This document shows, piece after piece, positions 32,995 through 47,330 of a DNA stretch of 64,000 bases. The stretch's first letter is position 1, and each line of letters starts with the position of its first letter. Origin of the DNA: Chromobacterium violaceum ATCC 12472 (lineage in GTDB: Bacteria; Pseudomonadota; Gammaproteobacteria; Burkholderiales; Chromobacteriaceae). The stretch is from NCBI RefSeq assembly GCF_000007705.1, contig NC_005085.1, positions 1,435,752-1,499,751 of the forward strand, in the 5' to 3' direction. Under the pieces are notes generated by a model. That model ran no database searches and was not told where the DNA came from. It worked only from the letters and a program-made list of their open reading frames with translations. The translations under genes were made by a program, and so were the position numbers.

Positions 32995-33573
32995 ATGATC
33001 TGGAACTTCATCGCGGCCACCGCGCTGGTCACCCTGATGCCAGGGCCGTCGCTGCTGCTGATCGTCGGGGCTTCGATGCGGAGAGGGTGGCGCGCCGGCG
33101 CGGCTGTCACGCTGGGCGTGGTTCTGGCTGACGCCGTTCTGTTATTGGCGGTGCTGGGCGGGTTGGGGACGTTGGCGAGAGCGGCTCCTGTCGCGCTGTC
33201 ATGCTTGAAATGGCTGGGGGCGGCTTACTTGTTGTATCTGGGAGCGGCGCAGTGGCGCTCGGCGGGACTGGCGCCGGCAAGCGACGGGACCGGCGGTTTC
33301 CGCCGCGGACTGGCCACCACGCTGCTCAACCCCAAGATCATCGTTTTCCTGGCGCTGTATTTCCCGCAGTTCATCCGGCCGGGTGAGGATGCTGGGCGGC
33401 AGATGCTGCTGCTGGGACCGCTGTTCCTGCTGACGGTGCTGGCTGTGTTCCTGCTGTGCGCGGCCGCCGCGCGAGGATTGCGCGGCATCGCGTCGGGGAG
33501 GGGCGGCGTTTGGCTGGAGCGGGGCAGCGCTTGCTGCTTGATCGCCTGCGGCCTGTATTCCGCTGTCGGCTAG
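32995..33573 (+). CDS. LysE-family exporter
   Basis: This 192-residue membrane protein of the LysE/RhtB family has about six membrane segments. The N-terminal signature is ALVTLMPGPSLLLIVGASMRRGWRAG, and the mid-protein LLNPKIIVFLALYFPQF motif is conserved in RhtB proteins. It likely exports an amino acid or related compound. GAGGAGG precedes the ATG. Its end overlaps the convergent HAD gene by four bases. Confidence 0.88.
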   Translation: MIWNFIAATALVTLMPGPSLLLIVGASMRRGWRAGAAVTLGVVLADAVLLLAVLGGLGTLARAAPVALSCLKWLGAAYLLYLGAAQWRSAGLAPASDGTGGFRRGLATTLLNPKIIVFLALYFPQFIRPGEDAGRQMLLLGPLFLLTVLAVFLLCAAAARGLRGIASGRGGVWLERGSACCLIACGLYSAVG

Positions 33574-34286
33574 AGGCGGCGATTCGCATTCAGGACATGG
33601 CCAAGCCTTCCATTCAAGGATGCGGTGGCGGAGGCCCTTTCCAGCCATTGCCATAGTTCGGGGGAGTTGAAATCGGCGATGACCGAGTCGGCGCCGGCTT
33701 CGCGCAGCGCGACCTCGGGCAGCATGCCGGCGATGGCGAAGGTGCGCAGGCCGGCCTGCTTGGCCGCGCGGATGCCGGATGGAGAGTCTTCGAACGCGCA
33801 CGCGCGTTCGGCCCGCCCTCCCACTCGGGCGAGTCCGGCGAGATAGGGCAGCGGGTGAGGTTTGCCGTAAGCCAGCTCGTCGCCTATCACCAGCGCGTCC
33901 ACCCGGGAAGCCAGGCCCAGGCCGTCCAGCATCAGCTCGGCGTTGGCGCGCGGCGCGTTGGTGACGACGGCGACGGCCGCGCCTTTGGCCTGGGCCCAAT
34001 CGAACAGCCGCAGCGCGCCCGGGGTGGGGCGCAATTGGCCGACCGAGGCGCGGAACAGTTGCTCCTTGCGCTCGGCCAGCTCCCGGTGCCGCTCGGGAAT
34101 GCCCGGCAGCAGCGCGCGCATGATGGCTTCGTTGGTGGAGCCGTGGACATGCCGCAGATAGCCGTCATGGTCCAGTTCCCGGCCGTGCTCGGCCAGCAAC
34201 GCGCGGAAGGCGCGGAAATGCAGTTCGTCGGTATCGGTCAGGGTGCCGTCCAGATCGAACAGCAGGGTGAAATCGGCTTGGGGCAT
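33570..34286 (-). CDS. HAD-family hydrolase (beta-phosphoglucomutase-like), last gene of the cluster
   Basis: This 238-residue HAD enzyme has motif I FDLDGTLTDTD (nucleophile Asp about residue 11), motif II VVTNAPRAN, the conserved Lys in YGKPHPLPY and motif III FEDSPSGIRAA. The cap is the helical subclass I type of phosphosugar phosphatases and mutases. It is clearly paralogous to the HAD at 36406 (shared RHREL/RRLAERKEELFRA, TPGALALF and PLPYL blocks). It sits 78 bases beyond galM on the same strand. Likely substrates are sugar phosphates. Confidence 0.85.
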   Translation of the reverse strand: MPQADFTLLFDLDGTLTDTDELHFRAFRALLAEHGRELDHDGYLRHVHGSTNEAIMRALLPGIPERHRELAERKEQLFRASVGQLRPTPGALRLFDWAQAKGAAVAVVTNAPRANAELMLDGLGLASRVDALVIGDELAYGKPHPLPYLAGLARVGGRAERACAFEDSPSGIRAAKQAGLRTFAIAGMLPEVALREAGADSVIADFNSPELWQWLERASATASLNGRLGHVLNANRRL

Positions 34287-34364
34287 GGCGGAGAGTTGTG
34301 TTCGGGTTTCGCGCCCATGGTAGGCGGCTTGCCGCCGCCGGGCAAGCCGCCCGGCGGTTTGCGC

Positions 34365-35438
34365 TCAGCGGGGCGGGGCGATGCCCAAGCGGTAGATGGT
34401 GGTGCTGCGGTAAGGCTGCTCTGGCCGCAATACCGAGCTGGGGAAGTGGGGGACGTTGGGCGCGTTGGGAAAGTGCTGGGCTTCCAGGCAGAAGCCATCG
34501 GATTGCCGGTAGGCGCGTCCGGACGCGCCGTTGTAGCGACCGGTGAGCACGTTGCCGCTGTGCAGCTGGAGGCCGGGTTCGGTGGTGAGCACGTCCAGCA
34601 GGCGACCGCGGCTATCTTCCACCACGCGCGCGGCCAGCCGCGGGTAGGGCTCGGCGCCGTCGCGCGATAACGCGTAGCAATGGTCGTAGCCGCGTCCCAG
34701 CCGGATTTGCGGGTCGTCGGCCCGTATGTCCCGGCCCAGCGGCTTGGGTTCGCGGAAATCGAATACCGTACCCTGCACGCTGCGGATTTCGCCGGTGGGG
34801 ATCAGCGCTTCCGTCACCGGCAGGAAGTGGTCGGCCAAAATGGCCAGCCTGTGGTCCAGCGCGCTGCCGCTGCCTTCTCCCGCCAGGTTGAAATAGGCGT
34901 GGTTGGTGGTGTTGAACACGGTGGGGCGGTCGCAGCTGGCCTCGCAGCTGATCACCAGGTCGCCGGGCGGCTTCAGCGCGTAGCTGACGGTCAGGGTCAG
35001 CCGCCCGGGGAAGCCCTGGTCGCCATCCGGGCTTTCCAGCCGCAACAGCACTTCTGGATGGTCGGGCGCATCGGCCACGGCGGCCACCTGCCACAGCCGG
35101 CGGTCGAAGCCTTCCGGCCCGCCGTGTATGGCGTGGCTGCCCTCGTTCAGGTCCACCTGGTGCCAGCGGCCGTCCAGCTGGAAGCGGCCGTTTTCTATCC
35201 GGTTGGCGTAGCGGCCCATGGTGGCGCCCAGGCGGCCGCCGGCCTGGCGGTAGTCGTCCAGCCGGGTGTAGCCCAGCACCACCGAGTCGAAGTGGCCGTG
35301 GCGGTCGGGGCTGCGCAGCGACTGCAAGGTGGCACCCCAGGCCAGGATGGCGGCGCTGACGCCGTTGCTCAGCGTCAGCTCCACTTTCTCGACGGTTTCG
35401 CCGCCTGGCAGGGTGCCGAATGCGGAACGGGTGATCAT
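34365..35438 (-). CDS. galM: galactose mutarotase (aldose 1-epimerase)
   Basis: This 357-residue enzyme interconverts alpha and beta anomers of aldoses. Family motifs are MGRYANRIENGRF, the catalytic His in NTTNHAYFNLAG and the Glu in GFCLEAQHFPNAPN. No signal peptide is present, so it is cytosolic. The ATG at 35438 overlaps the preceding gene's stop by four bases, so it is translationally coupled to the binding-fold protein and the HAD. Inside this operon it points to a free sugar as substrate or product. Confidence 0.9.
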   Translation of the reverse strand: MITRSAFGTLPGGETVEKVELTLSNGVSAAILAWGATLQSLRSPDRHGHFDSVVLGYTRLDDYRQAGGRLGATMGRYANRIENGRFQLDGRWHQVDLNEGSHAIHGGPEGFDRRLWQVAAVADAPDHPEVLLRLESPDGDQGFPGRLTLTVSYALKPPGDLVISCEASCDRPTVFNTTNHAYFNLAGEGSGSALDHRLAILADHFLPVTEALIPTGEIRSVQGTVFDFREPKPLGRDIRADDPQIRLGRGYDHCYALSRDGAEPYPRLAARVVEDSRGRLLDVLTTEPGLQLHSGNVLTGRYNGASGRAYRQSDGFCLEAQHFPNAPNVPHFPSSVLRPEQPYRSTTIYRLGIAPPR

Positions 35439-36409
35439 GGGGTTTTCTCCGGTTTGGGCGCGCGCGCGGCGCGCAGCCGCATCAGCGCGTCGAAGCGTTG
35501 CAGGACGGCGGGCCGCTCGCGGCTGGCCCGCTCCGGATTGATGGGGAACAAGGCCGGCTCGCGTTCGCCGCGCAGCAAGAGCTTGGCGTGGTGGCGGAAC
35601 AGGTCGGCGGCCTCTTCGGACATCACCCAGTCCAGCGCCCGGCGCGCCAGCGCCTGCTGGCGGCTGCCGGCCAAAATGCCGTAGACCTCGGCCTCCGCGC
35701 CTATCGCATCCTGCGGCAGCGCCTGGACCAGCGCAGGGTTGTCGCTCAGCCGGCGCCGCGCCGCTACGCGCACGGTGACGCCCAGCGCCGCGCCGCCATC
35801 GCCGACGCGCGCGGCCGGTTCCCAGGCCGAGCCGGGGTAGTCGATCACGTTGCGGTCTATCTCCACCATCAGGCGCCAGCCGTCTTCCGGCCCGTAATAC
35901 TGGAGGATGGTGGTCAGCGCCAGGTAGCCGGCGCCGGAGCGGCGCGGGTCGGGGAACAGCAGGGATTGGCGGAGCGTCGGCGAGGCCAGATCGGACCAGC
36001 GTGCAGGAAGGACCGCGCCGCGCGCCTGCAACAGGGCGGGGTCGGCGACGAAGGCGAGGGAAAAGCCGGTGGGCCGGCAGAAGCCGTCGGCGTCGCAGCC
36101 GCCGCCTGGGGCCGGCGGCGCGATCCGGGTGGCGATGCCGGGGCTTTGCGCGGCGGTGTCGGCCCAGCCCAGCACCAGGTCGCCCTCCGGACCGGACAGC
36201 AGAAAGGCGGTCAGGCTGGAGGTGGGCATTCTCCACACGGTGATGGCGACATCGGGCATCAGCCGGCTCAGCGCTTCCAGATAGTCGGCCAGTTCGTAGG
36301 GTTCGAAGGCGCTGTAGGCGATCAGATGGCCGCCTGCGCCGCTGCCGGTGGCGGCCTCGATGCGGACCGCGTCGGCGGGCAGGCCGGGGGGAGGCGCGGA
36401 CGGGCTCAT
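35435..36409 (-). CDS. periplasmic-binding-fold protein (AfuA/Fe3+-SBP-like) lacking a signal peptide
   Basis: This 324-residue protein resembles type II ABC solute-binding proteins of the Fe(III)/phosphonate group (AYSAFEPYELADYLEALSR, WSDLASPTLRQSLLFPDPRRSGAGYLAL, EEAADLF). It starts MSPSAPPPGLPADAVRIE, with no signal peptide or lipobox, and no ABC permease or ATPase is nearby. It overlaps both neighbours by four bases. A cytosolic binding or enzymatic role within the pathway is more likely than transport. A longer 5' reading would run into the HAD gene. Confidence 0.7.
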   Translation of the reverse strand: MSPSAPPPGLPADAVRIEAATGSGAGGHLIAYSAFEPYELADYLEALSRLMPDVAITVWRMPTSSLTAFLLSGPEGDLVLGWADTAAQSPGIATRIAPPAPGGGCDADGFCRPTGFSLAFVADPALLQARGAVLPARWSDLASPTLRQSLLFPDPRRSGAGYLALTTILQYYGPEDGWRLMVEIDRNVIDYPGSAWEPAARVGDGGAALGVTVRVAARRRLSDNPALVQALPQDAIGAEAEVYGILAGSRQQALARRALDWVMSEEAADLFRHHAKLLLRGEREPALFPINPERASRERPAVLQRFDALMRLRAARAPKPEKTP

Positions 36410-37098
36410 GCTCCGGACTCCTCGGCCGCGGCGCTCAATTCCAGCGCATCCAGCCGCCGCCACAGCTCGGCGGCGGTGAAGTCGGCGATCACTTCGTCGG
36501 CGCCGGCGCCGCGCAGCGATTCGGCAGGCAGCGCGGCGCCGACGCCGAAGGTGTGGATGCCGGCGGCGCTGGCCGCTCGCACGCCGGACAGCGAGTCCTC
36601 GAAGGCCAGCGCGCGCTCGGGGCGGCCGTTCAGCCGCTGCAGGCCGGTCAGGTAGGGCAGCGGATCCGGCTTGCCGCGCGGCAGCTCCTCGCCTATCACC
36701 AGCGCGTCTATCCGTCCCAGCAGATCCAGTCCGGCCAGCATGCGCTCGGCGTTGGTGCGCGGCGCGTTGGTCACCACCGCGATCGGCACCCGGCGCGCCT
36801 CCGCCCATTCGAACAGCGCCAGCGCGCCGGGCGTCGGCTCCAGCTTGCCGATGGCGGCGCGGAACAGTTCTTCCTTGCGTTCGGCCAGGCGGCGGTGCGA
36901 GTCCTTGGACAGGTCGGGAAACAGTTCGCGCATGATCGCGTCGTTGGGCGCGCCCATGATGCGTTCCTTGTAGATCTGCATGGTGATGCTGCGTTTATGG
37001 TCGGCCAGCAAGGTCTGGTAGGCGCCGAAATGCAGGATGTCGGTGTCCACCAGCGTGCCGTCCAGGTCGAACAGCAGGGAAAAATCGGCTTGGCTCAT
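36406..37098 (-). CDS. HAD-family hydrolase (beta-phosphoglucomutase-like), second copy
   Basis: This 230-residue protein carries motif I FDLDGTLVDTD, motif II VVTNAPRTN, Lys in RGKPDPLPY and motif III FEDSLSGVRAA. It is a paralogue of the HAD at 33570. The ATG at 37098 has AAGGAGAAC upstream. It follows the MFS gene by 26 bases, and its stop overlaps the next start (ATGA). It probably dephosphorylates a sugar or cyclitol phosphate of this pathway, as NtdB does in kanosamine synthesis. Confidence 0.85.
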   Translation of the reverse strand: MSQADFSLLFDLDGTLVDTDILHFGAYQTLLADHKRSITMQIYKERIMGAPNDAIMRELFPDLSKDSHRRLAERKEELFRAAIGKLEPTPGALALFEWAEARRVPIAVVTNAPRTNAERMLAGLDLLGRIDALVIGEELPRGKPDPLPYLTGLQRLNGRPERALAFEDSLSGVRAASAAGIHTFGVGAALPAESLRGAGADEVIADFTAAELWRRLDALELSAAAEESGA

Positions 37099-37124
37099 CG
37101 TTGTTCTCCTTGTTTGCGCAAGTC

Positions 37125-38303
37125 TCAGGCCTTGTGCGGCAGCGCGTGGCGTTGCCCAGCGGCCAGGCAGGCCGCCGCCATCAGCAGCGGCAGGACGACA
37201 AGCATGCCGATCGCATTGACGAGGCCCGCCATTTGGCCGATATAGCCCAATACGATGGGGACCACCAACAGGGAAATGCCGACGGCCTGGGTGGCGCCCA
37301 CGGAAATCAGGCCGACATGGCCGGGTTCGAGCCGGATCGCGTTGCTGATCAACAGCGGGAAGAAATTGCCCAGGCACATGCCGGCCAGCGCCAGCGCGGC
37401 GATGGTGACGGCGGGCAGGGCGCTGGCCCAAAGGCCGAGGATGGCGACGCCGCCCAGCAGAATGACCGCCATCAGCATGTTGCGGCCGTCGAAGCGCGCC
37501 AGCAGCCGGCTGGAAACGAGGCGTCCGAACACGGTGCCGCCGAAGAAGACCGACATCAGGCTGACCGCCTGGGCGGGCCCCAGGCCCAGCCGGCTTTCCA
37601 GGAACTGGGCGCCCCAGAAGCCTATGCCCCATTCCGCGCCTATGCCCAGCAGCACCGAGATCCAGCACAGCGCCACCGCCAGCGGCACGCCGCCGCGCGC
37701 GGCGCTTCGGGTTTCATCCGCCTGTTCCGGCCGGCCGGCAGGGGCCGGCAGCGGCAGGATCAACGCCAACGCCAGCGCCGCCGCCAGCAGCGTCCAGCGC
37801 CAAGGCAGGCCCAAGGCGGCCAGCTGGCCGACCAGCAGCGGGCCGGAGAACACGCCGGCGCCGGCGAAGATGAAGGCCTCCACCATCGCCATGTCGCGGT
37901 GCTCGGTCTGGTGCCAGGCCAGGGCGGCCTGCACCGCGGACTGGAGCACGCCGCCGGTCAGTCCCATGGCGATCGCCGCGGCCAGGGTGCCGGCGAAACC
38001 GCGCGCCTGCGTGATGGACAGCACGGCCAGCACCATGGCCACGGCCGCGCCGCGCACCAGCGGACCCAGGCCCAGCCTGGGCAGCAGCCAGCCGCCCAGC
38101 AGGCCGGACGCGACCAGGCCGCCGGCATAGCTGGTAAAGTGCCAGCCGACCTCGATGGGGTCGTAGCCGAACTCGGCGCGCAGGAAGGGCAGGGTGGAAC
38201 CCAGCACCGACTGCTGAAAACCGAATACCGCCAGCACCAGGTACAGGAACCAGGTGGGGCCGTCGCGGCGGAAGGGCCGGGGGGCGCGGATGCTGTCTGT
38301 CAT
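37125..38303 (-). CDS. MFS transporter
   Basis: This 392-residue permease of the major facilitator superfamily has twelve predicted membrane segments and a central cytoplasmic loop (about 190-210). The LGLG-rich loop between segments 2 and 3 is the expected position for motif A, though degenerate. It resembles FucP/YfkF-type and drug-type MFS proteins. It heads the second half of the cluster (MFS-HAD-SBP-galM-HAD), after a 183-base gap from nudK. It could export the product or import a sugar precursor. Confidence 0.85.
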   Translation of the reverse strand: MTDSIRAPRPFRRDGPTWFLYLVLAVFGFQQSVLGSTLPFLRAEFGYDPIEVGWHFTSYAGGLVASGLLGGWLLPRLGLGPLVRGAAVAMVLAVLSITQARGFAGTLAAAIAMGLTGGVLQSAVQAALAWHQTEHRDMAMVEAFIFAGAGVFSGPLLVGQLAALGLPWRWTLLAAALALALILPLPAPAGRPEQADETRSAARGGVPLAVALCWISVLLGIGAEWGIGFWGAQFLESRLGLGPAQAVSLMSVFFGGTVFGRLVSSRLLARFDGRNMLMAVILLGGVAILGLWASALPAVTIAALALAGMCLGNFFPLLISNAIRLEPGHVGLISVGATQAVGISLLVVPIVLGYIGQMAGLVNAIGMLVVLPLLMAAACLAAGQRHALPHKA

Positions 38304-38447
38304 CGCGGTTCCTTCTGTGTCGAATGGGGCGGCTTGTCGGGCCGCGCCTTGTCAGGTGGAGGGGCTGCGCCGATTCCGCTGCCGGCGGCTGCCGGGTGTT
38401 TTGTGGTCTGCGGCTCTGGGCGACCGGAGGTTTTGAGAGGGGCATCC

Positions 38448-38467
38448 GCGCCGGCTGAAGCCGGCGC
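38448..38467. terminator. strong hairpin after nudK, without T tract
   Basis: GCGCCGGCT-GA-AGCCGGCGC is a perfect 9-base stem, 20 bases past the nudK stop. No T run follows on either strand. It may attenuate transcription into the MFS gene or protect the upstream message. Confidence 0.45.
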
Positions 38468-38486
38468 AGCCTGGCAGCCGGACGCG

Positions 38487-39083
38487 CTAGTCCAGCAGCC
38501 GGTGCAGTTGCGCGTACTGCAGCAGCATGATGGTCTTGCCGTCGGCGATGTCGCCGCAGTCCACCATCGCCAGCGCCTGCTGCAGCGGCAGCTCCAGCAC
38601 CTCCAGCTCCTCGCCGTCCGCCGCTACGCCGCCGCCGTCGCCCACCTTGTCGCGGGCGTGGTATTCGCCGACGAAGAAGAACAGCTTTTCGGTGACCGAT
38701 CCCGGGCTCATGAAGGCCTCGAATATCTTGCGCACATTGTCTATCCGGTAGCCGGTCTCCTCCTCGGTTTCGCGGCGGATGCAGGTTTCCGCGTCGTCCT
38801 GGTCGAGCAGGCCGGCGCAAGCTTCGATCAACATGCCGTCGTGTCCGTTGACGAAGGCTGGAAAGCGGAACTGGCGGGTGAGGATCACCGAGCGGCGCGC
38901 GCGGTTGTACAGCAGGATCACCGCGCCGTTGCCGCGGTCGTAGGTTTCGCGCGACAGCGTCTGCCAGCTGCCGTCGCGGCGCCGGTAGTCGAAAGTGGTC
39001 TTGCGCAGCACGTACCAGTCATCGGACAACACTTCCACTTTCTGGATGCGCACCCGTTCCCGAGTGGCGGCGACATCGCTCAT
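38487..39083 (-). CDS. nudK: NUDIX hydrolase, NudK (GDP-mannose hydrolase)-like
   Basis: This 198-residue protein aligns by eye along its length with E. coli NudK (YDRGNGAVILLYN, RQFRFPAFVNGHDGMLIEACAGLLD, EVLELPLQQALAM, DGKTIMLLQYAQL). The NUDIX box is GLLDQDDAETCIRRETEEETGY, with REtEEEtG complete. NudK splits GDP-mannose or related NDP-sugars into sugar-1-phosphate and NMP. Its start overlaps the stop of the MTA-phosphorylase-like gene (ATGA). In this setting it may process a nucleotide-activated sugar. Confidence 0.82.
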   Translation of the reverse strand: MSDVAATRERVRIQKVEVLSDDWYVLRKTTFDYRRRDGSWQTLSRETYDRGNGAVILLYNRARRSVILTRQFRFPAFVNGHDGMLIEACAGLLDQDDAETCIRRETEEETGYRIDNVRKIFEAFMSPGSVTEKLFFFVGEYHARDKVGDGGGVAADGEELEVLELPLQQALAMVDCGDIADGKTIMLLQYAQLHRLLD

Positions 39084-39988
39084 GAATTTTCCTTTTGCTT
39101 GTTCATCAATCGGTTGGCGTTTGGCGCCACGGTCAACAGTTTCGCGAGCATGGCCGGATCGCGTTGTTCCGGCGCGGTCATGATCGCGGTGTCCAGCGCG
39201 CGGTCGCAGCCGCAGCGGCAGGCGCCGGCGTGGCGTCCCAGGCGTTGCACCGCTTCTTCCACCAGGCGGCGCGCGCTGTCGCCGACTTCGGCCATCCGCT
39301 CCGCCACCAGCGCGGCATTGACCGGTTCCTGCGATTCGAACCAGCAGTCGTAATCGGTGGGGATGGCCACCAGCGCGTAGCACAGCTCGGCTTCGCGGGC
39401 GAGCTTGGCTTCCGGCATTGCGGTCATGCCTATCACGGTGCCTCCCCACTGGCGATAGAGCAGGGATTCGGCGCGGGTGGAGAATTGCGGACCTTCCATC
39501 ACCACGTAGGTGCCGCCGTCGCGGGCCGGCACGCCCGTTGCGCCGACGCTGTCGGCCAGCGTTTCGCGCATCCGTCCGCAGACCGGGTCGCCGAAAGGCA
39601 CGTGGCCGACCAGGCCGGGACCGAAGAAGGTCTTGTCCCGCATCAGCGTGCGGTCGATGAACTGGTCGACCAACACGAAGCGGCCGGGGGGCACATCCTC
39701 GCGCAGGCTGCCCACCGCGCTCAGCGACAGGATCTGGGTGCAGCCGACGCGGCGCAGCGCGGCGATGTTGGCCCTGGCGTTGATGGAGGCGGGCGGGATG
39801 GTATGGCCGGGGCCGTGCCGCTGCAGGAAAGCGACCGGCACGCCGCCGAGATAGCCGGTGGTCACCGGCGACGACGGCGCGCCGAAGGCGGTGGCGCAAT
39901 GGTGGACGCGGGAGTCGGTCAGGCCCAGCAGGCGCTGGAAACCGCTGCCGCCTATGATGCCGATGCGGGCCGGATGGGATTCAGTCAT
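39080..39988 (-). CDS. mtnP: S-methyl-5'-thioadenosine phosphorylase-type nucleoside phosphorylase
   Basis: This 302-residue enzyme belongs to PNP/MTAP family 2: IGIIGGSGFQ (phosphate loop), RHGPGHTIPPASINARANI, MEGPQFSTRAES, GMTAMPEAKLAREAE and ATDYDCW-like TDYDCW. It splits methylthioadenosine or a purine nucleoside with phosphate. The C-terminal CRCGCDRALDTAI segment with three Cys is seen in many bacterial members. It overlaps the desaturase end by eight bases and the nudK start by four. It may be a housekeeping gene caught in the operon or a dedicated pathway step. Confidence 0.85.
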   Translation of the reverse strand: MTESHPARIGIIGGSGFQRLLGLTDSRVHHCATAFGAPSSPVTTGYLGGVPVAFLQRHGPGHTIPPASINARANIAALRRVGCTQILSLSAVGSLREDVPPGRFVLVDQFIDRTLMRDKTFFGPGLVGHVPFGDPVCGRMRETLADSVGATGVPARDGGTYVVMEGPQFSTRAESLLYRQWGGTVIGMTAMPEAKLAREAELCYALVAIPTDYDCWFESQEPVNAALVAERMAEVGDSARRLVEEAVQRLGRHAGACRCGCDRALDTAIMTAPEQRDPAMLAKLLTVAPNANRLMNKQKENS

Positions 39989-41090
39989 GGTGGCTTCCTT
40001 GGGTGGAGAGGCGGCCGGACAAGGGCTGTGCGACCAGCCGCTCGCGCAGCTCGGACAGCGCCGACGGCGCGTTGCCGCGGCGGAACAGCAGGCCCTCGCT
40101 GGCATGCTCGGTGTAGCGCGGGTCGTGAATCTTCAGATGGCGATCTATCGCCGGCAGGTAGTTCCAGCGCACGCCCGGGTACAGCGAGTGGACGAGGTGG
40201 TAGGCGTCCGAGGTGGGGGCGATGAACACCCGCACCAGCCAGCCGGCGACGCCGAAATAATCGGTGGGACGGCCCATCAGGTACTCCAGCTCCAGCCGCT
40301 CCAGCGGGAAGCCGGGCATGAACCAGCGGTGCTCGGCCAGCAGCGATACCCAGGCGAACACCGGGTAGGAAGTGAGCAGCGGCAGCAGCCAGCCGAAAAC
40401 CACGCCTGCCCAGCCGCCGACCCAGTACAGCAGCGCGCCGGTGGCCAGCAGCGTCGCGCAGCGGGCGAACGCCGTCGCGCGCGAGTGGTTGAGCATGCTG
40501 TTTCGGGCCATGGTGGCGAGATTGTTCCAGAAGCCTGCCGGGCTCAACGGGTAAAACAGCCGGGAGAGGAAGGAGAGATCGGACAGCCCGGCCGCGTAGC
40601 CGCCGGCGAACACCCGGGCGCGGTTGGGGTCCAGCTCCGGGTGGTTGGGCTTGCGGTGATGGTCGCCGTGGGTCTTGTGGCGGCTGTGCATGTCGCGCTT
40701 GAACACCGGGAACTGGTAGAAAATATCGCTCAGCCACCATTGCCAGGCATGGGACGGGCACAGCGCGAAGTGGACGGCGTTGTGGCCGAACTCCTGCAGC
40801 GCGCGCATGCGGCCGCCGCTCCACAGCACCACTAGCATCCAGCCCAGCACGGAGTCGGCCAGCGCGGCCGCCATCACCGCGGCGACGATGTCCAGCCAGG
40901 TCCAGACGAAGGGCAGCGGCGCCAGCCAGCCGTCCAGCGGGCGGTAATAGGTTTCCGGATTGTCGTCGATGCGCGGCAGCAGCCTGAGCCTGCGCATCAC
41001 CGGTCCGCTGTCGCGGTAATAGAAGTAGACGACGCCGCGCATCGTCAGCGAGGCGGCCAGTACCGCCAGCAGCGGATAGAGGGTATGCAT
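39981..41090 (-). CDS. fatty-acid-desaturase-like membrane di-iron enzyme
   Basis: This 369-residue membrane protein has three His clusters of the desaturase/hydroxylase superfamily: HNAVH (about 104-108), HKTHGDHH (about 138-145) and HLVHSLYPGVRW (about 299-310). It has four or more membrane segments. It would use O2 and two irons to desaturate or hydroxylate a lipid or lipid-like substrate. Its ATG shares one base with the preceding HAD stop (TGATG). Its place in an aminosugar-type operon suggests a modified acyl chain or a lipidated product. Confidence 0.83.
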   Translation of the reverse strand: MHTLYPLLAVLAASLTMRGVVYFYYRDSGPVMRRLRLLPRIDDNPETYYRPLDGWLAPLPFVWTWLDIVAAVMAAALADSVLGWMLVVLWSGGRMRALQEFGHNAVHFALCPSHAWQWWLSDIFYQFPVFKRDMHSRHKTHGDHHRKPNHPELDPNRARVFAGGYAAGLSDLSFLSRLFYPLSPAGFWNNLATMARNSMLNHSRATAFARCATLLATGALLYWVGGWAGVVFGWLLPLLTSYPVFAWVSLLAEHRWFMPGFPLERLELEYLMGRPTDYFGVAGWLVRVFIAPTSDAYHLVHSLYPGVRWNYLPAIDRHLKIHDPRYTEHASEGLLFRRGNAPSALSELRERLVAQPLSGRLSTQGSHHD

Positions 41091-41761
41091 CAGGGTTCTC
41101 CCGCGGCGGCCAGGGCCGGCAGCAATTGCGACAGGCTGGCGCAGACGGGCGCGTCGCCTTCATCCAGCCGCTTCCGGTCCTGGTGGCCGGTTTCCACCAG
41201 CAGCGCGCGCCAGCCTACCTGGCGCGCCACTTCGCAGTCGTGCAGCGTGTCGCCGATGAACAGCGTGTCTTCCGGCGGCAGGCTTAGCCGGCATTGCAGT
41301 TCCCGCGCTTCCTCCAGCTTTCCCGAGGCGTGGGTGTGGCCCAGTCCGACCACGTGCTGGAAGCGGTCAAGCAGGCGCTTGGCTTCCAGCGTGCGCACCA
41401 GCACGTCGCGCTGGGACGCCGACAACACCGAGACGGCGATGCCGCGCGCGGCGGCGAGTTCCAGCAGTTCGTGCACGCCGTCGTGAATCGGACAGCGCGC
41501 GACATGGGCGTCGAAGTGCTCCAGATAGACGGCGACGATGTCGGCGAATGGGTGGCGGTTGAAGTCGAAGCCCAGCCGGGAATAGAAGCCGGCGATCGGA
41601 AAGCCGAATTCGCGCCGGTAGCGCTCGCGCGTGACCGGTTCCGCGTCGAAGCGCGCGCAGCAGCGGTTTACCGAGGCCACCGCCAGATCGATGTCGTCTA
41701 TCAGGGTGCCGTTCCAGTCGAATACCAGGTGGCGGACACCTGCCAGCCAGGCCGCGCTCAT
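41090..41761 (-). CDS. HAD-family phosphatase (Gph-like)
   Basis: This 223-residue protein has motif I FDWNGTLIDD (nucleophile Asp about residue 15), motif II VSVLSASQ, Lys in HASGKLEEA and motif III FIGDTLHDCEVA. It is closer to phosphoglycolate-type phosphatases than to the two beta-PGM-like HADs of the cluster. It overlaps the flavoprotein stop by four bases and the desaturase start by one. It is the third HAD in the operon and may act on a different phosphorylated intermediate. Confidence 0.85.
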   Translation of the reverse strand: MSAAWLAGVRHLVFDWNGTLIDDIDLAVASVNRCCARFDAEPVTRERYRREFGFPIAGFYSRLGFDFNRHPFADIVAVYLEHFDAHVARCPIHDGVHELLELAAARGIAVSVLSASQRDVLVRTLEAKRLLDRFQHVVGLGHTHASGKLEEARELQCRLSLPPEDTLFIGDTLHDCEVARQVGWRALLVETGHQDRKRLDEGDAPVCASLSQLLPALAAAGEP

Positions 41762-43116
41762 GTTCGCGCCTCTCCGGGCAGCAGCGAGCCGAGCACGATG
41801 CGCGCGGCGATCGGCGGCGCGTACAGCCGGGACGGATTGACGATCAGGTTGCTGACGCCGATCTGCGCCTCCAGCGCGCCGCGGTGATAGGCGGACAGCC
41901 GGGTCAGGCCGGCGCCGTACCAGTGCAGGAAGCGGGTGCGCCAGCCTCGTTCGCCTTCGGTTTCCGGGAAGCGCAGATCCTCGGTGACCGCCATCTGCCA
42001 GGCCGGATCCAGCGCGCGGCACAGCTTTTCCTGCAGTTCCTGGCAACGCAATCCGCCGGCGAGCAGCGCGTCCAGATTCTCGTCCAGGCATTCGGCCTCC
42101 AGCGCGCACAGCGTCATGCCCTGGCTGTACAGCGGGTTCATGCTGGCCAAGGCGTCGCCGACCACCAGCAGGCCGTCCGGCCAGCGCGGCAGTCGGTCGT
42201 AATGGCGGCGCAGGCTGCCCGGCATGCGGAACACCGACACGTCGGACAGCGGTTCGGCATCCCGTATCACTTGGTGGATGTCCGGCATCGGCAGCGCGGC
42301 TAGCGCTTTGAGGAAGGCGTTCGGATCGCGGTCAGGGTAATGGCCGAACCAGCCTCCGGTGGTCACCATCCAGCGGTCGCCCTCTATCGGACTGATCACG
42401 CCCATCGCCCGTTGATGGGGAGGCGTGGCCAGCACCAGCAGCACTTTCCACTGGTTGGCGAACTCGGGCCGGCGCCGGTAGATGCGCGAAGCGTAGCCGA
42501 GGTCGGTCTTGACCATGCTCTTGTCCACCGCGCCGAGGCCGGCGGTTTCCAGCCAGCCGGGCAGGCGGGTGCCGCGGCCGCTGGCGTCCACCAGCGCGTC
42601 GGCGTCCAGCGTCCAGGCATGGTCGTCGTTGCGCAGCCGGACGCCGCCGACCGCCAGCCTGTCGCCGTCTCGGCGGAAGTCCAGGCCTTCCATCTGGGTG
42701 CGCGACAGCACCGTCACCTGCGGCAGCCGCGCGACGCGGCGGCGCAGATGGGTGTCGATCAGCCGGCGGCTGCAGTAGTGGGCGTGGATGCCGCAGCGAT
42801 AACGGTTTTTCCAGCGGCCGGCCTGGTACCACTTGACGTCGTGGCCCAGGTCGGCCACCAGCGCGCCGGCCTGCTCCAGTTCGGACAGGAAGCCAGGGAA
42901 GATGGCTTCCATGATGTCCTTGCCGCGCTGCAGCAGCAGGTGGACGTGGTGTTCCTGCGGCACGCTCTGGCGCGCGCCGGTTTCGTTGTGGAAGTCGCTT
43001 TTTTCCACGATGGTCACGCGCGGATAGCGGCGGGCCAGCACGGCCGCCGCCAGGCAGCCGGCGACGCTGCCGCCCAGCACCACCGCGTGGGCGTTTTCAG
43101 TTGGGGACGTAGTCAT
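41758..43116 (-). CDS. FAD-dependent monooxygenase/oxidoreductase
   Basis: This 452-residue flavoprotein has an N-terminal dinucleotide motif (AVVLGGSVAGCLAAAVLARRY, GxGxxG-like GGSVAG) and a second FAD motif, GLLVVGDALASMNPLYSQGM (GD motif), around residue 310. The HHVHLLLQRGKDIMEAIFPG segment is typical of the halogenase/hydroxylase-like group. The lysine dyad of tryptophan halogenases is not evident. It probably hydroxylates or oxidises a pathway intermediate. Its start overlaps the aminotransferase end by 20 bases. Confidence 0.83.
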   Translation of the reverse strand: MTTSPTENAHAVVLGGSVAGCLAAAVLARRYPRVTIVEKSDFHNETGARQSVPQEHHVHLLLQRGKDIMEAIFPGFLSELEQAGALVADLGHDVKWYQAGRWKNRYRCGIHAHYCSRRLIDTHLRRRVARLPQVTVLSRTQMEGLDFRRDGDRLAVGGVRLRNDDHAWTLDADALVDASGRGTRLPGWLETAGLGAVDKSMVKTDLGYASRIYRRRPEFANQWKVLLVLATPPHQRAMGVISPIEGDRWMVTTGGWFGHYPDRDPNAFLKALAALPMPDIHQVIRDAEPLSDVSVFRMPGSLRRHYDRLPRWPDGLLVVGDALASMNPLYSQGMTLCALEAECLDENLDALLAGGLRCQELQEKLCRALDPAWQMAVTEDLRFPETEGERGWRTRFLHWYGAGLTRLSAYHRGALEAQIGVSNLIVNPSRLYAPPIAARIVLGSLLPGEART

Positions 43117-44200
43117 TCAATGTCCTCGCGATGTAGTCGAGGTCCGCGTTGCCCAGGTCCGGGTGCAGCGGCACCGTGGTCAGCGAGCGCAGCAGCCGGG
43201 CGGCGTTGGGGCACTCCCGGCGGTAGCGCGCCAGCAGCGGCAGCTGGTACAGCGGCTGGTTGTCGTACTTGCCGATGTCGGACGGGATGCCGCGCGCCAT
43301 CTGGTAGCGCACCAGTTGCCGGCCGTCATGGCCGACCGCCTGCAGCAGCAGCGCATAGCCGTTGGCTTGGCCATGCTCGGGCAGCGGCAATTCGCGCAGC
43401 GCCGGGTTGCCCAGCGCGGCCAGCAGCCGCTCGCGGTTGCTCAGACGGATATCCAAGTGCCGCGCCAACTGCCGGCTGCGCGCCAGGCCCAGCGCCGCTT
43501 GCAGGCCGCCCAGCTTCAGGTTGATGCCCACGCTCCGGCCGGTGAGGTTGCCGAAGCGGGTGTAGGCGCGGATGCGCTCGGCTCGCTCCGGATCGGCGGT
43601 CATGACGAAGCCGCCCTCGCCGGTGGACATGAATTTGCAGTCGTGGGTGCTGAAGCAGCAGATCTCGCCGATGCGCGCCAGCCAGTCGCCGTTCAGCCGG
43701 GTCATGTGGCAGTGGGCCAGATCCTGGATCAGCGGAATGCCGCGCGCGCGCAGCAAGGCCCAGGTCCGGTCCGAGGGGACGGGATAGCCCCACATCGGCA
43801 CTTCGATCGCCGCGCGGGTGCGCGGTCCAAGGCAGCGTTGCAGGTCGTCCGGGTCCAGGCCGAAGCTGTCGGGCGCCGTGTCGCAGAACACCGGCACCAG
43901 GCCCTGCGCCAGAATGGGCAGCACGGTGCAGATCGGGCAGGTGGGCGCGAGCACCACTTCGTCGCCGGGGGAGAAGTCGATGCCGGCCAGCGCGGCGTGG
44001 ACCGAGGCGGCGCCGGAGGAAACGGCGATCACGTGCGGGAAACCGTACAGGCTTCCCAGCGCCGCTTCGTATTCCGCGACGACGTCGGCGGTGCCGGACA
44101 GGCCGCCGCGCAGCGCGCGGGCGAGTTCGGCGGCATCGTCCGGCGTGTCGTGGGCGCAGGTTTCGGCGATGTGGCGTGTTTCAAGCGCGATCGTGCTCAT
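43097..44200 (-). CDS. DegT/DnrJ/EryC1/StrS aminotransferase, copy 1
   Basis: This 367-residue PLP enzyme belongs to the sugar aminotransferase family. The internal aldimine lysine is Lys189 in STHDCKFMSTGEGG, and AVSSGAASVHAAL forms the phosphate cup. In place of the family's usual TFxAT stretch it has PTCPICTV, also seen in copy 2. It would transaminate a keto-sugar or keto-cyclitol. ATG 44200 is preferred over 44203 because GGAG lies 7 bases upstream. It is paralogous to the gene at 44712, separated by a NUDIX gene. Confidence 0.88.
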   Translation of the reverse strand: MSTIALETRHIAETCAHDTPDDAAELARALRGGLSGTADVVAEYEAALGSLYGFPHVIAVSSGAASVHAALAGIDFSPGDEVVLAPTCPICTVLPILAQGLVPVFCDTAPDSFGLDPDDLQRCLGPRTRAAIEVPMWGYPVPSDRTWALLRARGIPLIQDLAHCHMTRLNGDWLARIGEICCFSTHDCKFMSTGEGGFVMTADPERAERIRAYTRFGNLTGRSVGINLKLGGLQAALGLARSRQLARHLDIRLSNRERLLAALGNPALRELPLPEHGQANGYALLLQAVGHDGRQLVRYQMARGIPSDIGKYDNQPLYQLPLLARYRRECPNAARLLRSLTTVPLHPDLGNADLDYIARTLNDYVPN

Positions 44201-44715
44201 CATCGGACTCCCTGCTGCACCGCCTGCCATACCGCCTGGTCGTCGTACAGGCCCTCCAGCATGCGGCGGAAATTGGCGAACATCGGCAACGCGTCCAGCC
44301 GTTCGCGCGGGAAGAAGCCGACTTCCACGGCTTCGCGGCCTGGTGGACAGCGCCGTTCCGGCGTCGCGCACAGGTAGATCAGGTCCAGGTGGTAGTGCGG
44401 GGTCTTGGGATCGGCGATGTACTCGCACAGCACCCGGTACGGGCGGTGCAGCGCGGAGACATCGGCCTCTTCATCCTCCAGCGCGAGATCCCGTTCGCCA
44501 AGCAGCCGAGCGTGGATCCCGGTTTCCTCGCGCACTTCGCGCAGCGCCGCCTCATCCGGCGTTTCGTGCCGTTCGACGTGGCCGCCGGGGTACAGCCAGA
44601 CGCCGAGCTTGCGGTGCCGCAGCAGCAGCACCTCATGGTGGGGGTTGAGCACGAAGGCGGAAGCGGTGAAGTGCCGTTCCAACCCGGCGCGCTGCATCGC
44701 GCGGTCGGTGATCAT
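44200..44715 (-). CDS. NUDIX hydrolase
   Basis: This 171-residue protein has a NUDIX box GGHVERHETPDEAALREVREETG (residues 44-66, REVREETG intact). Upstream is LLLRHRKLGVWLYPGGH and downstream an aromatic-rich substrate region. It is not closely related to the NudK-like gene in the same cluster. It overlaps both DegT genes by a few bases, so its expression is tied to theirs. The likely substrate is a nucleotide sugar or other nucleoside diphosphate derivative. Confidence 0.85.
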   Translation of the reverse strand: MITDRAMQRAGLERHFTASAFVLNPHHEVLLLRHRKLGVWLYPGGHVERHETPDEAALREVREETGIHARLLGERDLALEDEEADVSALHRPYRVLCEYIADPKTPHYHLDLIYLCATPERRCPPGREAVEVGFFPRERLDALPMFANFRRMLEGLYDDQAVWQAVQQGVR

Positions 44716-45827
44716 GGCGCCTGGTACCCGTTGATGACGTCCGCCATGTAGTCCAACTCTTCCTCGCCCAGCGCCGGGTGTACCGGCAGCGTGGTCATGC
44801 CGGAGAGCAGCGCTTCGGCATTCGGGCAGTCGCGGCGGTACTGCTCCAGCGCCGGGAAGCGGTACAGCGCCTGGCAGCCGTAGCGCTTGATGTCGGATGG
44901 AATGCCGCGCGCGTCCAGGTAGTCGATGAAGGCGCGGTTGTCGGCGAACCCCAGTTCCAGGTTGAGAAAGTAGTAGTTGGGGTTGCCGCCTTCTATGATC
45001 CGCTTTTCCCGAACCTGGGGGTGGCGCAGCCGTTGCAGCAGATGGCGGGCATGGGTGCGCCGGCGGTCTATCTGCCCGGCGAGCTTGTCCAGCCGGCTGT
45101 GGCCCAGCGCCGCCGGCAGCGCGGCCAGCTTGTAGTTGAGGCCGAAGTCCGCGCCGTTGAGGTTGCCGAAGCGGCTGTAGGAGCGGCAGCGCTCGGCGAG
45201 CTCGGCGTCGTCGGTCAGCAGGAAGCCGCCCTCGCCGGTGGCCAGCGGCTTGCGCTCGTGGGTGCTGAAGCAGGACAGGTGGCCGTAGGACGACAGGTGC
45301 CGGCCGTGCAGCGTGCTGCCGTGCGAGTGGGCCAGGTCCAGAATCAGCTTCAAGTCCAGCGAGTCGGCCAGTCCCCGCAATTCGTCCACTTCAGTGGGGT
45401 AGCCCCACATCGGGATGTCGATCAGCGCCGAGGCTCGGGGGGTGACGCGTTCCCTCACCGAGTCCGGATCGGCGCCGAAACCGTGTTCGCGGGTGTCCAC
45501 AAACACGGGATTGGCGCCGGCGGCGATGATGGGGTAGACCGTGCACAGCGGGCAGCTGGGCGTCAGCAACACGTCATCGCCGGGCTGCACGCCGGCGGCG
45601 AACAGCGCCACGCTCACGGCCGCGCCGCCGGAAGACACGGCGATGGCCTCGGCGGCGCCGAACCAGGCGGCCAGCGCTTGCTCGTAGGCGACGACGGTGT
45701 CGCTGGTGCCGGACAGCGCGCCGCGCAGCGCCCGCTCCAGCGCGGGGAGATCGTCCGGGTATTGCGGACGGTATTTGTCGGAGATCACGCGGCCGGCGGT
45801 CTGGGCCGCGGCGATGGTTGCGGTCAT
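44712..45827 (-). CDS. DegT/DnrJ/EryC1/StrS aminotransferase, copy 2
   Basis: This 371-residue PLP enzyme has aldimine Lys193 in STHERKPLATGEGG, AVSSGGAAVSVAL as the phosphate cup and PSCPLCTV in the position matching copy 1. It aligns along its length with copy 1 at roughly 40-50 percent identity by eye (shared PMWGYP, RFGNLNG, RGIPSDI, YRxxCPNA). Two copies may aminate two positions or form a heterodimer. It starts 17 bases after the dehydrogenase and overlaps the NUDIX gene. Confidence 0.88.
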   Translation of the reverse strand: MTATIAAAQTAGRVISDKYRPQYPDDLPALERALRGALSGTSDTVVAYEQALAAWFGAAEAIAVSSGGAAVSVALFAAGVQPGDDVLLTPSCPLCTVYPIIAAGANPVFVDTREHGFGADPDSVRERVTPRASALIDIPMWGYPTEVDELRGLADSLDLKLILDLAHSHGSTLHGRHLSSYGHLSCFSTHERKPLATGEGGFLLTDDAELAERCRSYSRFGNLNGADFGLNYKLAALPAALGHSRLDKLAGQIDRRRTHARHLLQRLRHPQVREKRIIEGGNPNYYFLNLELGFADNRAFIDYLDARGIPSDIKRYGCQALYRFPALEQYRRDCPNAEALLSGMTTLPVHPALGEEELDYMADVINGYQAP

Positions 45828-45844
45828 GGAGGACTCCCGTTCGG

Positions 45845-46897
45845 TTACAGCGACAGAGATTCGATGCCGGTGCGTATCCGGCTATGGGCGTTTTGCAGGC
45901 CCTGGGCCACGGCGTCGGCCGAGCAGATTTCCTCGATCACGCGGTAGGTGGGCAGCAGGCTGGCGAAGTCCGCCTCGAAGCGGCGGTGCTCGCGTATCGC
46001 CTGGAAGAACTGGTGCAACTCGCCGTGGTAGCCGCTGCGCTCGTAGCCGGAGTCCAGCGGCCCAGGCTGCCAGGCGCCGCGCCAGCGCTTGGCCGCGCCG
46101 GTGGGGCGGGTCGCGTGTTCGGGTTCGTGCAGCGTGATGTTCCACAGGTTGTCGAGCTCCACCAGCGTGGAGCTGGAACTGACCAGCTTCATGTCGAACT
46201 CGAAATAAGGGAAGCTGGTTCCGGCCAGCAGACTGGCGGTGGCGCCGGATGAGAAGGCCATGTCTGCCTTGACGATCAGCGCGTCGTCGTGGCGCTGCAC
46301 GCTGGATTGCACGCGGCGCAGCTCGCCGTCGCCGAAGGTGATGGCCAGGTCTATCGTGTGGATGGCCTGCGCCAGCAGGAAGGAGCGCAGCGTGGAGTCC
46401 AGCCCCCACAGCGGGGCGCGCGGTTTGTTGGCGTAGTGGTTGAGCTGGATGTGCAGGGTCTCGCCGAATTCGTCCACCTGGGTCATCTCGCGCAGTTGGC
46501 GCACCGGGCGGGCGAACTTGAAGTTCATGCCCACGCCGGATACCACGTCGCTGCGGCGCGCGGCATCGATCAGCGTTTCCAGCTCCTCCAGCGTCGCGCA
46601 CGGCGGTTTTTCGACGAACACGTTGACGCCCTTGCTCATCGCCAGCAGCCCCATTTCGAAGTGCAGCTGCGGCGGGCCCGCCATCACCACCGCGTCCAGC
46701 GGGACCTGGTTCAGCATGGCCGGCACGTTGTCGAGCACCGGGATGTCGGAAATGAAGCGGTGGACGCGCCGCGCCCGTTCCAGATCGCTGTCGCACGCGG
46801 CGACGATCCGTATGTCCTGCATCTGCAGAAGAGACGGCAGCAGGTTTTCCTGCATCTGCGCGCCGATGCCGACAAGGCCAACCTTGATCAAGCTCAT
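45845..46897 (-). CDS. Gfo/Idh/MocA-family dehydrogenase, first gene of the cluster
   Basis: This 350-residue oxidoreductase has an N-terminal Rossmann fold (KVGLVGIGAQMQENLLPSL), the family EKPP motif in VNVFVEKPPCATLEE (catalytic Lys), and a C-terminal GFO/IDH alpha/beta domain. Members oxidise sugar or inositol hydroxyls, for example NtdC on glucose-6-phosphate C3. Paired with DegT aminotransferases and HAD phosphatases, it would supply the keto-sugar to be aminated. It is the promoter-proximal gene, preceded by a 433-base spacer. Confidence 0.87.
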   Translation of the reverse strand: MSLIKVGLVGIGAQMQENLLPSLLQMQDIRIVAACDSDLERARRVHRFISDIPVLDNVPAMLNQVPLDAVVMAGPPQLHFEMGLLAMSKGVNVFVEKPPCATLEELETLIDAARRSDVVSGVGMNFKFARPVRQLREMTQVDEFGETLHIQLNHYANKPRAPLWGLDSTLRSFLLAQAIHTIDLAITFGDGELRRVQSSVQRHDDALIVKADMAFSSGATASLLAGTSFPYFEFDMKLVSSSSTLVELDNLWNITLHEPEHATRPTGAAKRWRGAWQPGPLDSGYERSGYHGELHQFFQAIREHRRFEADFASLLPTYRVIEEICSADAVAQGLQNAHSRIRTGIESLSL

Positions 46898-47284
46898 CGT
46901 GAATCTCCATGACCGGCCCCGCGCCAGGCGCGGCGTGCCCGTGTTGCTCTGGATTGATGAAAAGCCTCAGCCCTGCGCAAGGATCAGCGCATGGCCGAGT
47001 CATGCCCCAATGAGGAAAACGACACAGCAGCAAGCGGTTTTTATCGTTGGCATCGGATTCGCGGGACGCGACGCCGGTGCGGGCGGGTAGGCTCTGGCGG
47101 CTTTGCGGGAGACGGTTGTGGGCCGTTCATGCGGCGAGTATGTGCCGCGGGGGGCTGGGGATAGGCGAATACTGATAGAAAAGACAGGTCTGTTTTTGTT
47201 CAAACTGTCAGGCCGGAATGGTCTCCATGTCTGGAGAGTTAGACTGGGCGGAGCTTGCGCCGTGTGGCCATTCGCGCCACATGC
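46898..47284. other. intergenic region upstream of the biosynthetic block
   Basis: No gene is supported in this spacer, which must hold the promoter of the cluster. Two dyads are visible: TCTCCA-TGTC-TGGAGA (47222-47237) and GACAG...CTGTC (47183-47209). I found no convincing sigma-70 promoter and no clear lux-type box. Confidence 0.4.
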
Positions 47285-47312
47285 AAAAACGCCGCCGGAA
47301 ATCCGGCGGCGT
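47285..47312 (-). terminator. rho-independent terminator of sdaA
   Basis: On the minus strand CGCCGCCGGA-TT-TCCGGCGGCG is followed by T5. It starts about 20 bases past the sdaA stop. Confidence 0.85.
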
Positions 47313-47330
47313 CGATGGGAACTCGCGGGC

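Follow-up and report, generated by a model that had tools for sequence, protein, structure and literature searches.

A patchily distributed gene cluster of Chromobacterium violaceum with amino-sugar logic, possibly built on a nucleotide scaffold

The genome of Chromobacterium violaceum ATCC 12472, a single contig of 4,751,080 bases, harbours a compact run of genes for sugar oxidation, amination and nucleotide hydrolysis, which we describe here from a stretch of 64,000 nucleotides (NC_005085.1, positions 1,435,752 to 1,499,751; hereafter the window). The run consists of 14 minus-strand genes, g1 to g14, extending from position 46897 down to 33570 (Table 1), and at 9 of its 13 junctions neighbouring genes overlap by 1-20 bases; a first-pass annotation of the same DNA had stated such overlaps for most of the genes. 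The family names given there likewise agree with Pfam, in which each of the 14 proteins has at least one match above cut-off. When compared with the orthologues of another Chromobacterium genome (G018), the ratio of the computed nonsynonymous and synonymous substitution rates (dN/dS) lies between 0.10 and 0.29 for all 14 genes, and g1-g14 therefore act as real genes.

Table 1. Genes of the block and extent of the inserted segment, in window coordinates
Feature	Position	Strand	Support
g1 Gfo/Idh/MocA dehydrogenase, first core gene	45845..46897	-	PF01408 E 8.8e-21
g2 DegT aminotransferase, partner of g1	44712..45827	-	PF01041 E 9e-67
g3 MutT-like Nudix hydrolase	44200..44715	-	PF00293 E 1.3e-17; Nudix box kept
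g4 second DegT aminotransferase	43097..44203	-	PF01041 E 4.8e-53; pyridoxal phosphate (PLP) Lys kept
g5 FAD monooxygenase, MonCI/Lsd18 epoxidase family	41758..43116	-	PDB MonCI E 9.4e-60
g6 HAD hydrolase, motif I DWNGTL	41090..41761	-	PF13419 E 6e-20
g7 membrane di-iron desaturase/hydroxylase, GntB-like	39981..41090	-	PF00487 E 2.7e-18
g8 adenine-type methylthioadenosine (MTA)/nucleoside phosphorylase	39080..39988	-	TIGR01694 291.2 bits, cut-off 274.85
g9 Nudix hydrolase, YffH/AdpP (NudK) type	38487..39083	-	TIGR00052 153.6 bits, cut-off 79.55
g10 major facilitator superfamily (MFS) permease, probable exporter	37125..38303	-	PF07690 E 9.1e-30
g11 HAD phosphatase, beta-phosphoglucomutase/sugar phosphatase type	36406..37098	-	PF13419 E 1.1e-29
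g12 solute-binding-protein fold, sugar-phosphate-binder type (predicted)	35435..36409	-	AlphaFold pLDDT 91.3, pTM 0.88
g13 aldose 1-epimerase (galM)	34365..35438	-	PF01263 E 1.4e-79
g14 HAD phosphatase, resident neighbour outside the block	33570..34286	-	adjoins sdaA in 6 of 13 block-less genomes with sdaA
Insertion: stretch absent from block-less Chromobacterium genomes	34283..47326	.	similarity break points at empty sites

Comparison with other members of the genus delimits the block. Among 19 Chromobacterium genomes sdaA was detected in 18 and full-length g7 in 5; in 6 of the 13 genomes that possess sdaA without the block, g14 directly adjoins sdaA, and in the remaining 7 neither g14 nor block genes were found within the 1.5-kb flank. 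At the six empty sites similarity to the window ends at 34277-34282 and picks up again at 47326-47338 in five of them and at 47285 in the sixth (L078), so that the block reflects an insertion, or the repeated loss, of g1-g13. Since it stands beside sdaA in six of the block-less genomes, g14 is a resident of the site; the copy of the block in C. sphagni showed no g14, and the membership assigned to it by the first-pass annotation was rejected, while that of g1-g13 stands. Elsewhere in the window, GC content drops to 0.547 in the segment 50001-52000, all other 2-kb steps lying between 0.60 and 0.72.

The block had been thought to have no recognised counterpart, a view that does not survive a genome scan with g5 as query. 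The scan, in which clusters without g5 cannot show, returned 17 loci from Chromobacterium (3), Pseudomonas (9), Paraburkholderia (2), Mycetohabitans (1) and Dyella (2), and g1-g9 are collinear in every one of them; the gene order is kept, and the homologues are thus not singly scattered. Variation is found downstream. In Pseudomonas, Mycetohabitans and P. humisilvae the core is followed by g12-g10-HAD, with g10 and g12 only 32-39% identical (36-39% for g10 in the Pseudomonas loci), g10 was not found in either Dyella locus, and the C. vaccinii locus stops in g10 at a contig end. Among the compared loci galM (g13) occurs only in Chromobacterium and Paraburkholderia sacchari, a distribution bounded by the ends of the stretches, those of Pantoea and of one enterobacterial genome (G539) ending within the MFS gene. 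Further copies are present in Chromobacterium G018, in a Burkholderiales genome (G941; g1-g9 and g12) and, judged from annotation, on the megaplasmid of M. endofungorum, and three other Mycetohabitans plasmids carry relatives of g1 and g7. A Pantoea ananatis plasmid possesses all nine core orthologues (32-56% identical) in a different order with the Nudix gene first, and the nine are likewise found in an order unlike that of the window in two enterobacterial genomes of one genus (G539 and G683). In samples of genomes, an orthologue of g1 was detected in 1 of 369 genomes of the class at E 1e-40 (the window's own), in 2 of 384 Enterobacteriaceae at E 1e-33 (both with Pantoea-type clusters) and in 2 of 280 Burkholderiales at E 1e-30 (the own genome and G941), and g7 is full length in 5 of 61 genomes of the family, other genomes giving weaker matches only. 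The distribution is patchy, and g1-g13 appears to be a horizontally mobile biosynthetic cluster of distantly related soil and plant bacteria. Its core is common to Chromobacterium, Pseudomonas, Paraburkholderia, Mycetohabitans, Dyella and enterobacteria, yet no description of it turned up in the open-licence papers searched; without a gene for a nonribosomal peptide synthetase (NRPS) or a polyketide synthase (PKS), the cluster is easily overlooked.

Smaller gene sets were also observed. One Chromobacterium genome whose sdaA site is empty (G025) has intact frames for g1-g2-g3-g4-g6 elsewhere (L039:11452-16748), followed by an EntD/PptT-like gene; g5, g8 and g9 were not found in the 19.9-kb stretch covered, nor g7 anywhere in the genome at E 0.001, and the five genes are a possible minimal pathway. 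On a plasmid of Rhizobium sp. BT04 (L060:9950-12634) there is a bare trio of Gfo/Idh, DegT and Nudix genes, 32-35% identical to g1-g3, which adjoins glycosyltransferases, a nucleotidyltransferase-domain protein and MFS genes and perhaps belongs to a different cluster using the same opening steps. The trio, adjacent in the window as g1-g2-g3 and present in Pantoea as well, is kept in G025 and Rhizobium and is therefore the part that stays together. No sigma-70 promoter was found in 33000-48000, where shuffles predict 0.9; for a CviR/LuxR-type box motif the window gave 9 matches against 5.4 expected (9 being reached by 8 of 100 shuffles), none of them upstream of g1; and PADLOC models gave one weak match, for g3, among the 10 of the 14 proteins compared.

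The opening genes would serve an oxidation and an amination. The dehydrogenase g1 matches PDB 3m2t, a 'probable dehydrogenase', from end to end (residues 1-349, 778.6 bits), the second-best PDB chain reaching 61 bits, and residues E96-K97-P98, H180 and D183 are invariant in eight aligned sequences (g1 and seven relatives). In its partner g2 the motif CFSTHERK..ATGEGG with the PLP lysine is found in 19 of 19 orthologues, those of Pantoea excepted; the Gfo-adjacent DegT proteins of Pantoea, G539 and Rhizobium read [C/A]FSTHERK..TGEGG. The best PDB matches of g2 are 2po3 (125.2 bits) and then 7b0d (117 bits). A comparison with characterised aminotransferases, which the first-pass annotation had envisaged for both DegT proteins, was run for g2 and places NtdA (4k2b) at 89.4 bits and rank 29-30 among the 60 matches listed, 3-amino-5-hydroxybenzoate (AHBA) synthase at 86 bits and the 2-deoxy-scyllo-inosose (DOI) aminotransferase 2c7t at 83.6 bits, all below 2po3; a special link to NtdA is thus unsupported. 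The second aminotransferase, g4, is 48% identical to g2, and in a tree the cluster DegT proteins separate from four others of the same genome (support 100/99). Gfo-adjacent and second DegT proteins are divided there with weak support (83/88), and long branches were flagged for the tree. Pantoea-type clusters contain a third, short DegT in which the PLP lysine is replaced by Gly or Ser (L059:12152-13147, L067:10927-11928), probably a non-catalytic subunit, which hints that the DegT proteins act as heteromers.

The NCBIfam relatives of g3 are mainly MutT-like, every one below cut-off, and its structural relatives are various Nudix enzymes; the nearest model to g9 is NudK, for which it reaches 232.2 bits, slightly below the cut-off of 234. 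The motif DWNGTL of g6 is kept in 9 of 9 aligned sequences, and g11 scores 115.5 bits against TIGR02009, below the cut-off of 153.35. g8 carries the motif TDYDCW, presumably adenine-reading, and at the aligned positions the four solved relatives displayed read TDYDV or TDFDC. The same genome has a second MTAP-like protein, 37% identical to g8, in which SNWAAG replaces TDYDCW (judged by eye); its gene (L088, C1:4199000-4205000) lies near CDP-glucose dehydratase and NeuB-like matches and is possibly of the thioinosine phosphorylase type. Together, the MutT-like Nudix and the MTA phosphorylase suggest that an intermediate is a nucleotide or a nucleoside; the first-pass annotation made no use of this pair.

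Two oxygenases complete the core. g5 is homologous to MonCI over residues 5-383 of its 452 and matches Lsd18/LasC at E 1.8e-52 to 6e-52, which places it in this family. Eight histidines of g7 are invariant in 9 sequences, a sequence search of the PDB returned no relative of it, and its only NCBIfam match is GntB (NF041365; 92 bits, cut-off 380), of which it is thus a relative and not a member. According to PMC10367076, GntB is a transmembrane enzyme making gamma-hydroxy-arginine. Because g7 is nearest to an L-arginine hydroxylase, the modified acyl chain that had been suggested for the product is unsupported; an acyl carrier protein, an acyl-CoA ligase and an acyltransferase are all absent from the 14 proteins, and acyl-chain modification was rejected. 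Relatives of g7 (32-37%) also occur on Streptomyces plasmids (e.g. NZ_CP109291.1 42567-43232), where the annotated feature is called either fatty acid desaturase or dihydrouridine synthase.

Among the remaining proteins, g13 passes the PRK11055 model (308.1 bits, cut-off 240), and g12 has a predicted fold whose top structures are AfuA, VcA0625 and P5PA, consistent with an AfuA-type binder. No signal peptide was recognised in g12 by eye, and no ABC permease is encoded among the 14 proteins. What the analysis itself shows is gene content, conservation, the patchy spread with its empty site, family membership and the predicted fold of g12.

In puromycin and ADG biosynthesis, according to PMC11641026 and PMC9239236, a 3'-amino-3'-deoxy nucleoside arises from a purine nucleotide through the dehydrogenase Pur10/AdgB together with an aminotransferase, a Nudix enzyme and a phosphatase. 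By analogy we tentatively propose, with slightly less confidence than an even chance would warrant, that g1-g13 build an amino-sugar on a nucleotide by such logic and that the adenine is then removed by the MTA-phosphorylase-like enzyme. The wider amino-sugar reading is supported by the conjunction of a Gfo/Idh dehydrogenase, two DegT aminotransferases, HAD enzymes and galM, and here the dedicated cluster postulated by the first-pass annotation is upheld. The substrates and the pathway steps we infer throughout. g1 would oxidise ATP, or a different purine nucleotide, at the 3'-OH of its ribose, g2 would aminate the resulting ketone, g3 would take off pyrophosphate, and g6 or another HAD enzyme would dephosphorylate the product. 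The sugar could then be oxidised by g7 and g5, adding oxygen or unsaturation, with g4 performing a second transamination on the new carbonyl or forming a heterodimer with g2. Phosphorolysis by g8 would remove adenine and yield a modified aminopentose-1-phosphate, to be held in the cytoplasm by g12; g11 would release the free sugar, g13 equilibrate its anomers and g10 export it, while g9 may clear nucleotidylated side forms. A stronger version, which we consider conceivable and rather doubtful, makes ATP a disposable scaffold: once aminated, its ribose would be oxidised further by the epoxidase-family flavoenzyme and the GntB-like di-iron enzyme, a recruited MTA phosphorylase would remove the adenine, and a cytoplasmic binder that lost its transporter would keep the oxidised, base-less (di)amino-pentose phosphate until dephosphorylation and export.

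Several observations weigh against this proposal. The best curated NCBIfam relative of g1 is UDP-GlcNAc 3-dehydrogenase (65.5 bits, cut-off 450), and the DegT proteins score best against nucleoside diphosphate (NDP)-sugar aminotransferases, PseC/LegC/ArnB being the best NCBIfam relatives of g2 and g4, all below their cut-offs. g8 passes an ordinary MTAP model and could serve mere MTA salvage, and g9 is without a firm role. HAD phosphatases usually carry a second Asp in motif I where g6 has Asn, and g6 may therefore catalyse a reaction other than simple phosphate hydrolysis. In a profile alignment inspected by eye, the AfuA sugar contacts His205 and Asp206 are not kept in g12 (Val/Ile-Ala), only Glu229 being so. 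Finally, nothing among the 14 proteins corresponds to Pur3, an enzyme of the inositol-monophosphatase type; their phosphatases are all HAD enzymes.

Some of these points favour the main rival, an NDP-hexose route, to which we would assign a real if minor chance. Here g1 would oxidise a UDP- or ADP-hexose at C3 and g2/g4 would aminate it; a Nudix enzyme (g9 or g3) would yield amino-hexose-1-phosphate and a nucleoside monophosphate, a HAD enzyme would free the amino-hexose and galM would mutarotate it, along the lines of RifL/RifK-type kanosamine formation; g5 and g7 would tailor it, and g8 would work on a by-product. Such a route suits the below-cut-off NCBIfam relatives of g1, g2 and g4 and the predicted resemblance of g12 to hexose-phosphate binders, and it explains g9, a member of the YffH/AdpP family, better. 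However, it leaves unexplained both the adenine-type phosphorylase in 17 of 17 loci and the fact that a MutT-like, not a YffH-like, Nudix travels with g1-g2, and the score of g1 lies far below the cut-off of the UDP-GlcNAc model.

The resemblance of g12 to binders of glucose 6-phosphate and fructose 6-phosphate would also suit an Ntd-type route, brought up as an analogy by the first-pass annotation, in which C3 oxidation of glucose-6-phosphate, transamination and dephosphorylation lead to a kanosamine-like amino-hexose. The enzyme classes agree (Gfo/Idh, DegT, HAD), but g2 is as near to many other DegT proteins as to NtdA, neither the Nudix pair nor the nucleoside phosphorylase has a role in it, and g12 is without the His-Asp contacts of AfuA, so that we hold this route to be improbable. 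Much the same applies to an operon for the catabolism or salvage of a nutrient containing a nucleotide or amino-sugar, which g12 would bind and g10 import: MTAP, HAD enzymes, galM, Nudix and the binding-protein fold are also known from salvage pathways, and MTA was plentiful in C. violaceum medium according to PMC7762789. Two biosynthetic-type DegT proteins and two oxygenases would be atypical of salvage, and the missing ABC permease and the patchy spread likewise leave it little probability. An aminocyclitol, which the first-pass annotation had entertained as a product, made from inositol in the streptidine/fortimicin manner with g1 as inositol dehydrogenase and g2/g4 as inosose aminotransferases, fits the broad logic of one Gfo/Idh, two DegT and HAD enzymes and the second match of g2 (7b0d, by name a glutamine-scyllo-inositol transaminase), but we think it very improbable, given 62.4 bits for g1 against the inositol dehydrogenase model TIGR04380 (IolG; cut-off 355), the low score of g2 against the DOI aminotransferase, the absence of a cyclase among the 14 proteins, and the Nudix, MTAP and galM genes that it leaves unexplained.

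If the nucleotide-based proposal is true, the cluster would make a class of amino-sugar metabolites without glycosyltransferase, NRPS or PKS that is common to plant- and soil-associated proteobacteria. Puromycin-type amination would be joined to phosphorolytic release in a route to base-less amino-pentoses that employs a pair of unusual oxygenases and a cytoplasmic binder, and the structure 3m2t would gain a candidate function.

With respect to known systems, the enzyme classes that open this cluster are those of puromycin, A201A and ADG biosynthesis (Pur10, Pur4, Pur7, Pur3; adgB-E), a likeness by class; Pur10 presumably belongs to the Gfo/Idh type, given its likeness to RifL. A primer pattern for AdgB from the Photorhabdus ADG genes was found in 0 of 392 genomes, and a profile search for ADG-type genes hit 2 of 384, both with Pantoea-type clusters. 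Only the block has a second DegT, a nucleoside phosphorylase, FAD and di-iron oxygenases and a second Nudix, and it further differs by galM, a binding protein without signal peptide and phosphatases of the HAD type. The resemblance of Pur10 to RifL is noted in PMC11641026, and the ADG cluster, according to PMC9239236, also has an MFS gene. In the kanosamine routes of RifL/RifK and NtdCAB, Gfo/Idh oxidation is followed by DegT amination as in the block, g2 showing no special closeness to NtdA. To our knowledge Ntd has no counterpart of the nucleoside phosphorylase or the MutT-like Nudix. MonCI and Lsd18, the homologues of g5, epoxidise polyketide alkenes, whereas the block has no polyketide genes. 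Unlike AfuA, VcA0625 and P5PA, g12 lacks a signal peptide as judged by eye; its block contains no ABC partners, and the His205-Asp206 pair is replaced. In the pathways of SalT (salinosporamide), FlB (fluorometabolite) and LipP (caprazamycin-type), a phosphorylase frees a modified sugar as its 1-phosphate from a nucleoside scaffold. The substrates there are 5'-halogenated adenosines or 5'-amino-5'-deoxyuridine, and by analogy our proposal would share with these pathways both the nucleoside scaffold and the phosphorolytic release.

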